From positions 3,162,001 to 3,226,000 of the forward strand of contig NZ_CP121194.1 of NCBI RefSeq assembly GCF_039993895.1: DNA of 64,000 bases, in the 5' to 3' direction. The notes beneath the pieces were generated by a model that saw only the letters and a program-made list of their open reading frames with translations, ran no database searches and was not told the origin of the DNA. Source of the stretch: Edaphobacter paludis (lineage in GTDB: Bacteria; Acidobacteriota; Terriglobia; Terriglobales; Acidobacteriaceae). The position numbers were made by a program, and so were the translations under genes. Of this stretch, positions 24,359-28,755 are shown in pieces. Within the stretch, counting starts at the first letter, position 1; each line of letters starts with the position of its first letter.

Positions 24359-25204
24359 ATGAACCGGATTGTGCATGGGGACAACCTCAATGTTTTGCGA
24401 AAAATGAAATCGGGCTCGGTGGAGTTGATCTATATCGACCCACCATTTAATACTGGCAAGCGGCAGGCTCGGAAACAGATGAAGACCGTGCGGGATGAGG
24501 CGGGAGACCGAATAGGTTTCGGGGGGCAACGGTACAGAACGGAGGTGCTGAAGGTGCAAGCTGGCGGCACGGGATATGGCGACCAGTTTGGAGACTTTCT
24601 TGGATTTTTGCGGCCACGGATGGAGGCGGCCTACCGGGTGCTGTCGCCTACGGGATCGTTTTTTTTTCATATCGACTACCGCGAGGTCCATTACTGCAAG
24701 GTGATGCTGGACGAGATCTTTGGGCGCGAGTGTTTTCAGAACGAGATCATCTGGGCGTATGACTATGGCGCGCGTTCGAAGAAACGCTGGCCTGCGAAGC
24801 ATGACAACATCCTCTGGTACACGAAAGACGCAGAACGGTACACGTTCAATCTGGAGGAGTGCGACCGGATTCCGTATATGGCACCGGGGTTGGTGGGGGC
24901 GAAGAAGGCTGCGCGGGGAAAGACGCCCACCGATGTCTGGTGGCACACGATTGTTTCTCCTACAGGCAAAGAAAAGACGGGATATGCGACGCAGAAGCCG
25001 CTGGGAGTACTGGAGCGGATTGTGAAGATCCACTCGAATCCGGGAGAGAAAGTGCTCGATTTTTTTGCAGGGAGCGGAACGACGGGAGAGGCTGCGGCGA
25101 AGCACGGACGGAGCTTTGTGATGGTCGACGAGAGTGAAGATGCGATACGCGTGATGAAGCAGCGGCTGGCAAATTGGCTGGGACATCGTAGAATCAAGCG
25201 ATGA
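24359..25204 (+). CDS. Orphan DNA methyltransferase (beta class, N4/N6)
   Basis: The 281-residue protein carries the amino-methyltransferase motif IV DPPF at 27-30 and the SAM-binding motif I FAGSGTTG at 236-243, in the order typical of beta-class enzymes, with a presumed target-recognition region between. It would methylate adenine N6 or cytosine N4 in a specific DNA sequence. No restriction endonuclease or specificity gene is found nearby, so it is likely a solitary, possibly regulatory, methyltransferase. Its TGA overlaps the ATG of the VKOR gene by 4 bp. Confidence 0.9.
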   Translation: MNRIVHGDNLNVLRKMKSGSVELIYIDPPFNTGKRQARKQMKTVRDEAGDRIGFGGQRYRTEVLKVQAGGTGYGDQFGDFLGFLRPRMEAAYRVLSPTGSFFFHIDYREVHYCKVMLDEIFGRECFQNEIIWAYDYGARSKKRWPAKHDNILWYTKDAERYTFNLEECDRIPYMAPGLVGAKKAARGKTPTDVWWHTIVSPTGKEKTGYATQKPLGVLERIVKIHSNPGEKVLDFFAGSGTTGEAAAKHGRSFVMVDESEDAIRVMKQRLANWLGHRRIKR

Positions 25205-25656
25205 AATATCTGGTGGCGTTGCTGGCTTTAGCGGGGTTGGGGGTAAGCGTAATGGGATTGCTGATCCATAATATGGATCCGGCAAAGGCACCTCCGTGTG
25301 CGGTGAGCGAGCATTGGGACTGCGGGTCGGTGAACCATAGCCGATTTTCGGTCTTTCCGCCGAGGACCTTCGATGAAGCTCCGGGCAAGGTGCATATTCC
25401 GGTGGCCACGGTAGGGATTGTGGCCTATGCCGTGATCGCCGTGCTGGCGCTGATGGAGCGGTGGTGGCTGGTGTTCGAGACGGCGCAACTGGGATTCATG
25501 TGCGCCTCGTTTCTGAGCTACCTCGAAGCGTTTGTGATGGAGAAGTGGTGCATCTACTGCGTGTGGTCGTGGGGGATTATGACAACGATTCTGTTGCTGA
25601 CGATCGGGTGGCTGGTGTATCGGCGGCGCGGTGGAAGAATAGCGTGGCAGAAATAG
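25201..25656 (+). CDS. Vitamin K epoxide reductase (VKOR) family protein
   Basis: This 151-residue, four-helix membrane protein has a periplasmic loop cysteine pair C33 and C41 (in WDCGSV), followed by the conserved serine in NHSRFS, and the active CxxC at C117-C120 (WCIYC) in the last helix hairpin. Bacterial VKOR homologues reoxidise DsbA-like thioredoxins using quinone. No fused thioredoxin domain is present and no DsbA gene is adjacent. It is translationally coupled to the upstream DNA methyltransferase. Confidence 0.9.
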   Translation: MKYLVALLALAGLGVSVMGLLIHNMDPAKAPPCAVSEHWDCGSVNHSRFSVFPPRTFDEAPGKVHIPVATVGIVAYAVIAVLALMERWWLVFETAQLGFMCASFLSYLEAFVMEKWCIYCVWSWGIMTTILLLTIGWLVYRRRGGRIAWQK

Positions 25657-25665
25657 AGGAAATCT

Positions 25666-26046
25666 ATGTGGCCTAAAGTGCTTGCGCAATTGTTCGAACT
25701 GCTTCCCCACGTCACGCGTCTGGTGCCGATGGCGGACAAGTATTTTTCGACGAAGACAGCGTCGGAAAAAACCACCCAGGCGGCCATGGCAGCCATGGCC
25801 GAGGGCATTCGTGGCGACCTGGGACAGGTAACCCAGGCCCAGGCCGGGCTTCATCAGCAGTTGCAGGAGCAGAGCGTTCAGATTGCCGAAGTCTCCGCCG
25901 ACGTAAAGAGGATGGCGACGGCGACGGAGCGGGTGACGGCGCTGGAGTCGCAGGTGGCAGCCTTGGGATGGTGGGTGAAGATTGGGGTTTCGCTGATTGT
26001 GGTTTTGCTGGTGTCGGTGATTGTGCTGCTGGTGCGCGGCCGGTAA
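25666..26046 (+). CDS. Small coiled-coil, C-tail membrane protein
   Basis: I do not recognise a family. The 126-residue product has a short amphipathic N-terminus, an Ala/Gln-rich heptad region from about 45 to 100 that should form a coiled coil, and one C-terminal membrane helix at 104-123 ending in RGR. It begins 9 bp after the VKOR stop with a GAGGAAA ribosome site, so it belongs to the same transcript. A membrane-anchored scaffold is plausible but unproven. Confidence 0.72.
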   Translation: MWPKVLAQLFELLPHVTRLVPMADKYFSTKTASEKTTQAAMAAMAEGIRGDLGQVTQAQAGLHQQLQEQSVQIAEVSADVKRMATATERVTALESQVAALGWWVKIGVSLIVVLLVSVIVLLVRGR

Positions 26047-26072: not shown

Positions 26073-27014
26073 ATGGGGATCAGCTGGGAACAAGCTCTGG
26101 ATTGCTTCAATAGTGATGACTTGATTGGAATCGGCATGGAGGCCGACGCGGTGCGGCGCAAACTGCATCCGGAGGGCGTGGTGAGCTATGCCATCGACCG
26201 GAAGATCGATTGTGCAACAGCTCCATTCGAGGCGCTCTACCAACAGATTCACGCGACCGTGGAGATGGGTGGGACAGGCGTAACTCTACGCCAGCGGGTC
26301 GATGCAGAACGGAAAATTGATTGGTATGAAGAATTGTTTGCCGGAGTGAGGGAGCAGTTCCCTGCCCTATGGCTGCATTGTCTTTCTGCCAGTGAGATCC
26401 TGGCCATTGCAGTCCGCTCACGACTGACCGTGCGGGATACGATTCTGCGGCTGCGGGATGCTGGCCTCCGCTCGATCCCAGGTGACGATGCCGGAATTCT
26501 GGATGATGCGGTGCAGCAGCAGAGTGGCCGGGACAGGTGGACCGTGGCAGACTGGGTTTCAACACACCGCACAGCGCACGAGTTGGGCATTCGGACGACT
26601 GCTGGGATGACATTTGGCGTGGGCGAGAGTTTTGAACAGAGGCTGAACCATCTTGACGCCGTGCGGCAGTTGCAGGAGGAGACCGGCGGATTTACCGCGT
26701 TTACTCCGGTGAGCTTTCAACCCCGCAAGGTCGGCGTGAGCGGCTTCGAGGAGGCGACTGCAGTGGAATATCTCAAGACGCTGGCTATCTCTCGGATGGT
26801 TTTGGACAATATCGATAACGTGCAGGCCGACCTGGAGACGCAGGGGTTGAAGGTCTTGCAGATGGGACTGCGGTTTGGCGGGAACGATGTGGGTTCAGTG
26901 CTGTGGGATGGGGCGGATGACACGACTGAGGAGGACCTGCGGCGAGTAATCCGCGGCGCGGGTTTCAAACCGGTGCAGCGGGATACGCTGTATCAAACGA
27001 TGTTTTTGAACTAG
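26073..27014 (+). CDS. MqnC-like protein lacking the radical-SAM cluster motif
   Basis: The 313-residue product aligns by eye with dehypoxanthine futalosine cyclase (MqnC), a radical-SAM enzyme of menaquinone synthesis: ADAVRRKLHP and VSYAIDRKI at the start, WYEELFAGVREQFPALWLHCLSASEI, LRDAGLRSIPGDDAGIL, and TAGMTFGVGESFEQRLNHL with QEETGGFTAFTPVSFQP. The segment that should carry CxxxCxxC between the DR..I strand and the GGTG helix is deleted; only isolated cysteines (C11, C47 and one in LHCLS) remain. The enzyme therefore cannot bind the usual 4Fe-4S cluster and is presumably non-catalytic or repurposed. The frame is intact, with no sign of frameshift. Confidence 0.8.
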   Translation: MGISWEQALDCFNSDDLIGIGMEADAVRRKLHPEGVVSYAIDRKIDCATAPFEALYQQIHATVEMGGTGVTLRQRVDAERKIDWYEELFAGVREQFPALWLHCLSASEILAIAVRSRLTVRDTILRLRDAGLRSIPGDDAGILDDAVQQQSGRDRWTVADWVSTHRTAHELGIRTTAGMTFGVGESFEQRLNHLDAVRQLQEETGGFTAFTPVSFQPRKVGVSGFEEATAVEYLKTLAISRMVLDNIDNVQADLETQGLKVLQMGLRFGGNDVGSVLWDGADDTTEEDLRRVIRGAGFKPVQRDTLYQTMFLN

Positions 27015-27129: not shown

Positions 27130-28755
27130 ATGCTGGTAGCTCCGCATGGCTTTGGCCATTATTGGAAGACCCACTACGCCGACAAGACGTTCGAACACCT
27201 GTACCGGTGGAATACGTTCGATACGTGCATGTTGATTCCCTACTTCATCGTGATGGTGATTCTGGCGTTCTATGGGATTCACCGGTATCAGCTGGTCTGG
27301 CTCTATTACAAGAACAAGAAGAATGCGCCAAAGTGGGATGAGCCGCCCGCGCGGTTTGCCGAAGGCCAGCTGCCGTTTGTGACGGTGCAATTGCCGATGT
27401 TCAACGAACAGTTTGTGATCGATCGGCTTATGGAAGCTGTGTGTCAGCTTGAGTATCCTCGCGACCGGCTTGAGATTCAGGTGCTGGATGACTCGACCGA
27501 TGAGACCCAGACCGTGGCCCGGGAGATGGTAGAACGATATGCTTCGGGCGCCATGGGAATGCCGCCACAGCCGATTTTTTATCTACACCGCACCAACCGG
27601 CATGGGTATAAGGCCGGAGCGTTGGACAAAGGCCTCGATGTTGCAAGGGGCGAGCTGGTGGCGATATTCGATGCGGACTTTGTGCCTCCGCCACGGTGGC
27701 TGATGCAGGTGGTGCACCATTTTGCCGAGCCGGAGATCGGCATGGTGCAAACGCGCTGGACGCACCTGAACCGGAACTATAGCTTTCTGACTCAAGTCGA
27801 AGCCATCCTGCTGGACGGGCACTTTGTATTGGAGCATGGCGGGCGCAGCCGGTCTGGTGTGTTCTTCAACTTCAACGGCACGGCAGGGATGTGGCGGCGG
27901 CAAACGATCACGGACGCTGGCGGATGGCAGCACGACACGCTGACAGAGGACACCGACCTCAGCTACAGGGCGCAACTGGTGGGGTGGAAGTTCAAGTATC
28001 TCCAGGATGTGGAGTGTCCGGCGGAGCTGCCGATTGAGATGACCGCCTTCAAGACGCAGCAGGCGCGCTGGGCGAAGGGACTGATCCAAACGGCGAAGAA
28101 GATTCTGCCGCAGGTGATGAAGAGCGATGCGCCGTGGCATACCAAGCTCGAGGCGTGGTATCACCTGACGGCGAATATCAGCTATCCGCTGATGATCATA
28201 CTGAGCGTGCTGCTCATGCCAGCGATGATTATCCGGAGCTGGCAGGGCTATCTGCAGATGCTGCTGATCGACTTTCCACTGTTCATGGCGAGCACGATGT
28301 CGGTGTCGACGTTTTATCTTGTCAGCCAGAAGGAGCTGTTTCCCAAGGCATGGCATAAGAGGATCTTCTACGTGCCGTTTCTGCTGGCGCTGGGAGGCAT
28401 TGGGCTCACGATCACCAATACCAAGGCCGTCATGGAAGCCCTCTTTGGTGTAAAGAGCGCATTCGCGCGGACTCCGAAGTACAAGGTGCTGAAGAAGGGT
28501 GAAAAGTCCCAGGCCAAGGTCTACCGGAAACGGCTGGGGATTGTGCCGTGGATCGAGCTGGTGCTCGGAGCTTACTTTGCGTGGACGGTCTGGTATGCCG
28601 TCTCCACGGAGAACTTCTTCACTGTGCCATTCCTGCTTCTGTTTGTGTTCGGATACTGGTACACCGGCCTGCTGAGCCTGCTACAAGGGCGGTTTGAGCG
28701 AGGCGGAAGTGCTGGGCAGGAGATGCACGAGAAGCCTTATCCGATTGGGATATGA
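27130..28755 (+). CDS. Processive family 2 glycosyltransferase, cellulose synthase/CslA-like
   Basis: The 541-residue membrane protein has a helix at about 33-52, a GT-A domain with DDS (120-122), DAD (181-183), TEDTD (272-276) and the processive QQARW motif (310-314), then four or more helices from residue 340 onward. It would polymerise a beta-linked glycan from a nucleotide sugar; CslA-like enzymes use GDP-mannose, and manC lies about 16 kb away. The frame stays open upstream to 27070 with hydrophobic residues but no standard start codon, so a longer N-terminus from CTG is conceivable. Confidence 0.9.
   Translation: MLVAPHGFGHYWKTHYADKTFEHLYRWNTFDTCMLIPYFIVMVILAFYGIHRYQLVWLYYKNKKNAPKWDEPPARFAEGQLPFVTVQLPMFNEQFVIDRLMEAVCQLEYPRDRLEIQVLDDSTDETQTVAREMVERYASGAMGMPPQPIFYLHRTNRHGYKAGALDKGLDVARGELVAIFDADFVPPPRWLMQVVHHFAEPEIGMVQTRWTHLNRNYSFLTQVEAILLDGHFVLEHGGRSRSGVFFNFNGTAGMWRRQTITDAGGWQHDTLTEDTDLSYRAQLVGWKFKYLQDVECPAELPIEMTAFKTQQARWAKGLIQTAKKILPQVMKSDAPWHTKLEAWYHLTANISYPLMIILSVLLMPAMIIRSWQGYLQMLLIDFPLFMASTMSVSTFYLVSQKELFPKAWHKRIFYVPFLLALGGIGLTITNTKAVMEALFGVKSAFARTPKYKVLKKGEKSQAKVYRKRLGIVPWIELVLGAYFAWTVWYAVSTENFFTVPFLLLFVFGYWYTGLLSLLQGRFERGGSAGQEMHEKPYPIGI

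Follow-up and report, generated by a model that had tools for sequence, protein, structure and literature searches.

Radical SAM proteins are defined by their cluster, and two of them are the closest described relatives of the protein examined here: MqnC, the cyclic dehypoxanthinyl futalosine synthase (TIGR03699), and MqnE, the aminofutalosine synthase (PDB 6xi9/6xig). Pseudoenzymes in general have an enzyme ancestry, have lost catalytic residues, and are retained by selection, and the protein at this locus appears to resemble them in all three respects. MqnC and pseudoenzymes are known kinds of protein, but a selected, cluster-less radical SAM protein tied to a substitute enzyme is apparently undescribed; we did not find an earlier description of a radical SAM or MqnC pseudoenzyme of this kind in the open-licence literature. 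In the portions consulted, one paper foresees that a different step of the Mqn pathway has undergone non-orthologous replacement (PMC4746308), one reports repeated switches between quinone pathways (PMC13386864), and neither mentions loss of the MqnC cluster. Here, we describe many soil acidobacteria in which the vitamin K2 enzyme MqnC lacks its iron-sulfur site, the rest of the protein is under selection, and the genome also encodes an intact MqnC-like enzyme. This suggests that MqnC has a job beyond catalysis.

Within the window (the whole 64,000-nucleotide stretch of the Edaphobacter paludis genome that was analyzed), the open reading frame (ORF) at 26073–27014 on the plus strand encodes a 313-aa protein with an ATG start and an intact frame, a pseudoenzyme candidate that we call the cluster-less native MqnC. 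Its top NCBIfam match was the MqnC model TIGR03699 (267 bits, E = 1.8e-79, best stretch beginning at profile position 73), and it scored lower with the other CofH-family models. PF19288 (CofH_C) was detected over its gathering score at residues 206–309 (56.8 vs. 27 bits), and PF04055 (Radical_SAM) was under its own (22.7 vs. 29.5 bits) and covered only residues 103–195. The protein shares with MqnC its within-genus neighborhood, N-terminal helices, BioB-like barrel (as modeled below), and CofH_C part. By contrast, it lacks the 4Fe-4S loop, has lost many MqnC-invariant residues, and falls under the curated family cut-off of 428.1 bits.

We aligned 43 cluster-less proteins (leaving out the short G329, G158, G026, and G056) with the 348-aa full-length MqnC of G027, a genome of the same genus. 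Residues 50–74 of the G027 protein, including CTEYCTFC, are absent from the 313-aa protein, leaving a gap of 25 columns with aligned flanks on either side; a smaller alignment agreed, and two later loops were also a few residues shorter than in G027. The junction falls at codons 49–50 (26217–26222, plus strand). These results bear out the preliminary description, which had reported an MqnC homologue with its 4Fe-4S cysteine motif cleanly missing from an intact frame. Two doubts attached to that description were also dispelled. The 313-aa protein has three cysteines, at positions 11, 47, and 103, but a C-x2-5-C-x2-4-C pattern occurs neither in it nor in any of 41 cluster-less homologues counted, ruling out a shifted cysteine triad (0/41). 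The deletion is conserved in relatives and recurs across numerous species and assemblies, including some of 1–10 contigs, so an assembly error or a one-strain event is ruled out as well. Judged from its sequence, the ORF is the native mqnC with a clean, in-frame, 25-residue deletion of the CxxxCxxC loop. When contigs of named genomes were scanned with the 313-aa protein, six loci were returned. The cluster was missing from three of them (in Granulicella sp. L60, Granulicella sp. UBA5172, and a draft genome from a lichen), two were full length, and the sixth (L035) was excluded because its ORF as extracted starts past the cluster region.

Within the genus, the surroundings of mqnC are alike in both states. 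Of the cluster-less genomes of the genus, 25 of 27 had the upstream VKOR-family gene (25201–25656, plus strand) beside mqnC, as did 13 of 14 cluster-bearing ones. An upstream 126-aa gene without a Pfam match (25666–26046, plus strand) neighbored mqnC in most of the genus, whichever the state, and the downstream family 2 glycosyltransferase gene (27130–28755, plus strand) did so in 26/27 cluster-less and 12/14 cluster-bearing genomes. In other genera, where the fetched flanks were unequal in length, the glycosyltransferase gene was found in 13/15 cluster-less and 11/32 cluster-bearing genomes, bringing it to 39 of the 42 cluster-less genomes of the family. These neighbors clearly identify the cluster-less gene as the native mqnC within the genus, as opposed to an additional copy; outside the genus, synteny was weaker. 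A functional link of the two upstream genes (25201–26046) to quinones is possible.

The window's genome (4.04 Mb, one contig) contains two other homologues. One is a canonical MqnE, whose 501 bits exceed the MqnE cut-off of 434.55. The other is a divergent MqnC-like radical SAM protein of 359 aa (G000:C1:2811464-2812540; L003:1183-2262), hereafter C2, a candidate for an unrecognised cyclase. The preliminary description had proposed looking for a canonical mqnC in the same genome; the homologue search found none there, only C2 and MqnE. C2 belongs to the same CofH/MqnC subfamily as the window protein (33% identity over residues 64–303), but it sits elsewhere in the genome and keeps the CxxxCxxC motif as CVAQCDYC, which was present in 57 of 57 C2 proteins. 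With TIGR03699, C2 reached 310.8 bits, under the 428.1 cut-off but above its own MqnE score of 217.4. It shares Y47, Y61, W238, and S280 with MqnC where MqnE differs, and among 55 positions conserved in C2 at which MqnC and MqnE are distinct, it was MqnC-like at 14, MqnE-like at 9, and neither at 32. The C2 tree has one clade in the family of the window's genome (f1) and one in a second family with C2 (f2), with support of 99 each. In G017 and G022, C2 lies near an MqnD-type gene.

MqnA/MqnD-family genes, of which the window's genome has two, were present in 60 of 61 genomes, and MenD exceeded its cut-off in 0 of the 61 searched, which points to the futalosine pathway as the expected source of menaquinone. 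A switch to the classical Men pathway is rejected by the same MenD count; the weaker MenD matches in 56 genomes we take to be other enzymes of the same fold family. The genome G030, putatively Granulicella tundricola MP5ACTX9, carries a cluster-less MqnC together with C2, and G216, putatively G. mallensis MP5ACTX8, carries a full MqnC without C2. In the portions of the reports consulted, MK-8 is the major quinone of both G. tundricola MP5ACTX9 (PMC4148992) and G. mallensis MP5ACTX8 (PMC3910553). If these strain matches hold, cells without the MqnC cluster would make menaquinone, with C2 as the sole candidate cyclase found. Because the putative G. tundricola genome would make MK-8 without a MenD over cut-off, C2 is, going by gene inventories, likely a working dehypoxanthine futalosine cyclase.

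The 12 f2 genomes with C2 present a different picture. None of the 12 had an MqnC match, C2 was their sole CofH-family match, and a 40-row profile (E up to 10) found no cluster-less remnant in them. C2 therefore does not always need a cluster-less MqnC. A recognisable full MqnE was also lacking in these 12 genomes (G037–G044, G046–G048, and G050) and in G051 and G058, although MqnA/MqnD-family genes were present, and these genomes may use another aminofutalosine synthase or another route. Because f2 is also without a recognisable MqnE, C2 might do something else there.

Across f1, cluster loss closely accompanied C2. Among 37 genomes of the genus, 26 carried C2, and 24 of these were cluster-less; G035 keeps the cluster (CTEHCTFC), and G004 had no native MqnC match. 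Ten C2-negative genomes of the genus had a full cluster-bearing MqnC, and G026 had only a fragment; neither G026 nor G004 (63% complete) is complete enough to be counted. An evenly drawn sample of 299 f1 genomes from 79 genera yielded 30 with C2. Sixteen of the 30 lay outside the genus, 15 of them cluster-less (genera g34, g56, g80, g82, and g83) and one, G262, with its cluster kept, and the draw added three more cluster-less genomes of the genus (G208, G275, and G322). In total, 42 of 45 f1 genomes with C2, from six genera, were cluster-less, two (G035 and G262) were cluster-bearing, and one (G004) had no native mqnC match. The cluster was present in 44 of 44 C2-negative f1 genomes in which mqnC was read, 13 of the genus and 31 of other genera, the latter picked non-randomly from a list. 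A search of the 299 genomes for a 70-residue cluster segment (E < 1e-25) gave a strong match in 1 of 30 C2-positive and 240 of 269 C2-negative genomes. Many of the 29 C2-negative genomes without a strong match are fragmented drafts, with the exceptions of G250 (one contig, 99% complete; E = 3.2e-18) and G224 (99% complete; no match), and there may be cases of cluster-less MqnC without C2 among the 29.

Seven independent pairs differed in C2. Five agreed with the association, none disagreed, and two showed no difference (p = 0.0625, in a test for which p = 0.05 was out of reach). The frame was open in 40 of the 42 cluster-less genes; in G158, the gene is split between contig ends, and in G329, two ambiguous bases interrupt it. 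Two genomes combine C2 with a native MqnC that still bears its cluster, G035 (L023 and L087) and G262 (L171 and L221). In G035, the motif is kept but CAFD stands in place of CAFY, which may mark the loss at an early stage.

To describe what the cluster-less proteins keep, we scored 41 of them at 159 positions invariant in full-length and outgroup MqnC. G275, near-identical to G208, and the lichen locus, with the same residues as G016 over the region shown, were omitted from this count and from the MqnC tree. Fifty-eight of the 159 positions were kept in at least 85% of the proteins, among others D16, L17, G21, A24, D25, R28, H32, P33, V37, Y39, R151, L152, A155–L157, W186, H190, R191, A193, H194, G197, F206, G207, G209, E210, Q226, G231, F232, T256, R268, F295, G296, N298, D299, G301, R325, A331–F333, P335, and R338. 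Another 54 were kept in fewer than 34%. These losses include N44–N49, the three cysteines, Y54, F57, A59–Y61, E71–Y73, M97, Q98, G100, H102, P103, G163, G164, E166, M205, I236, W238, Q241, T245, G248, W281, and most of the 306–314 loop. In the window protein, PGDDAG (26478–26495, plus strand) replaces the MqnC motif PGGGAE, with G163, G164, and E166 lost in full-length numbering, and TPVSFQP (26703–26723, plus strand) replaces IPWSFQP, with I236 and W238 lost; the N-terminal 40 residues (26073–26192, plus strand) remain near those of full-length MqnC. Family motifs suggest that the lost positions make up the catalytic face and that those kept form the scaffold; along with the cluster residues, the presumed SAM- and substrate-site residues are gone.

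An AlphaFold2 model of the 313-aa protein (40 input sequences, 8 of them full length) reached a pLDDT of 87.1 and a pTM of 0.87, and at the junction, it places a short turn instead of the loop, between a strand at 36–46 and a helix at 52–64. The best solved structural match was MqnE (6xi9_A; Z 36.9, rmsd 2.4 over 307 residues, 26% identity). By this model, the BioB-like, MqnE-type alpha/beta barrel is retained, as the preliminary description had supposed. Still, MqnE is cluster-bearing, and the window's genome has its own separate, canonical MqnE with CVASCRLC.

The remaining protein is under strong purifying selection, though less tight than on the enzyme. In 14 cluster-less pairs, pairwise codon models gave omega values of 0.034–0.146 (likelihood ratios of 78–291 against omega 1), those of the four pairs with dS >2 being rough. 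For the same pairs, C2 had omega 0.027–0.173 in 13, with the remaining pair saturated, and MqnE had 0.008–0.034 in 8. Full-length MqnC had 0.011–0.022 in seven of eight other pairs, with the eighth saturated; the cluster-less protein thus evolves faster than full-length MqnC. Pooled by region over nine pairs, with residues numbered by the first protein of each pair, omega was 0.081 for residues 1–40, 0.240 for 41–75, 0.103, 0.094, and 0.090 for the middle, and 0.043 for 256–317. All six regions were below 1, the loop region being the most relaxed and the C-terminal part (from residue 256; 26838–27011, plus strand), most of which lies within the PF19288 match, the lowest. Selection on the remaining fold in dozens of genomes indicates that the protein retains some task for which the fold is required. 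Activity aside, the pseudoenzyme proposed in the preliminary description is supported, with the cluster loop and other MqnC-invariant positions gone and the fold kept under purifying selection.

On balance, we favor the reading that this is a radical SAM pseudoenzyme left after displacement by a paralogue. Selection would preserve it for a role other than catalysis, probably that of a protein partner. The divergent C2 would have taken over dehypoxanthine futalosine cyclisation. The sequences show that native MqnC lost its 4Fe-4S loop and many MqnC-invariant positions and that the barrel, N-terminal helices, and C-terminal part have remained under strong purifying selection across dozens of genomes. 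The retained task would be non-catalytic and should depend on the scaffold together with both terminal parts. Its likeliest form would be a partner or scaffold for menaquinone enzymes, acting through surfaces that ordinary MqnC already had; given the displacement reading, we rate such a role within the pathway at slightly under even chances, and we consider sensing of a small molecule, or work unrelated to the pathway, less likely. A somewhat more tentative proposal is that MqnC has an old second function free of catalysis, such that once C2 handles the radical chemistry, the Fe-S loop is lost, repeatedly and in separate genera, and the barrel is kept for that function. Two ligands had been suggested for the cluster-less protein. 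Binding of a futalosine intermediate is disfavored because the presumed substrate-side residues are mostly lost: Q98, G100, H102, P103, W238, Q241, and T245, which by family motifs would line the substrate site, were each kept in fewer than 34% of the 41 proteins. Binding or regulation of the true MqnC is possible, but with C2 in that position, a mirror-tree comparison in 27 genomes gave it no support, finding no co-evolution of cluster-less MqnC and C2 beyond species history (partial r = 0.06, permutation p = 0.28).

Other accounts of the retained protein fit these results less well. If mqnC were simply a leftover on its way out after the C2 takeover, one would expect its faster evolution, the omega of 0.24 in the loop region, and lineages as diverged as G100, which is only 34% identical. 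Yet omega was 0.034–0.146 in all 14 pairs, nearly all frames were open, and the fold-bearing residues were kept, so we reject decay and consider it very improbable. The preliminary description had also raised a new chemistry, which here would be an enzyme working radical-free on the same or another substrate. The barrel retained in the model would allow for this, and some replacements recur (D at 163 and at 164 in 19/41 each, T at 236 in 20/41). However, the residues at lost positions differ by lineage, loop lengths vary, and no newly invariant site was seen among the lost positions, which makes a new enzyme improbable in our estimation. Slightly less improbable, though still doubtful, is a two-chain cyclase in which C2 gives the radical and the cluster-less MqnC gives the scaffold. 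The close co-occurrence of the two in f1 and the five agreeing pairs of seven are what such a complex predicts, but C2 stands alone in f2, G035 and G262 combine it with a full MqnC, and the mirror-tree signal is absent. The first and last of these observations argue against a fixed C2 partner in general.

On how often the cluster was lost, two lines of evidence disagree. In an rpoB tree of 30 genomes (18 cluster-less and 12 with the cluster; 40 genomes searched, 3 without a match, 30 of 37 loci used), the state changed nine times, with at least seven changes forced by starred branches, and this scatter suggests a repeated origin. By contrast, the MqnC tree without the deleted columns grouped the 41 cluster-less rows into a single clade (SH-aLRT 99), as expected if a single cluster-less allele of one origin had spread by recombination at the mqnC locus. 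This clade could be an artifact, since many cluster-less rows are long-branched and all lost the same constraints. A tree on 159 columns with full-length-like residues, a choice biased towards mixing of states, split the cluster-less rows and needed six changes, two of them forced. In addition, distances of the cluster-less protein track those of MqnE (r = 0.78), and its N-termini follow their own lineage: in g80, where 17 proteins from the two states were compared, 15 start with MGITRQQALDC and 2 with MGISRQQALDC, g82 and g34 mostly have GLG and VVTY, and g1 mostly has GIG and VVSY. Taken together, the sequences suggest that cluster loss happened more than once, despite the MqnC tree, and we regard one spreading allele as unlikely, though a more serious contender than any of the functional rivals above.

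If MqnC does have an old second function, nature would have provided a separation-of-function form of it in the cluster-less protein, and repeated paralogue displacement would have fixed a radical SAM pseudoenzyme. A natural control set exists in relatives with differing cluster and C2 states, including the putative G. tundricola and G. mallensis. A hidden non-catalytic role of MqnC becomes testable in this way, and C2, a candidate cyclase under the MqnC cut-off, can be named. Counts of mqnC genes by name alone could tally cluster-less proteins as enzymes.

A comparable case may exist for MqnE. In G051, which is without a full MqnE, a 162-aa ORF (contig C36, minus strand; L264:1854-2342) matches only the N- and C-terminal parts of MqnE, and its family consists of this one genome. 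This mini-MqnE is without the middle of the barrel and the cluster and adjoins a gene that reads as UbiA-like, and so resembles the MqnC case taken one step further.
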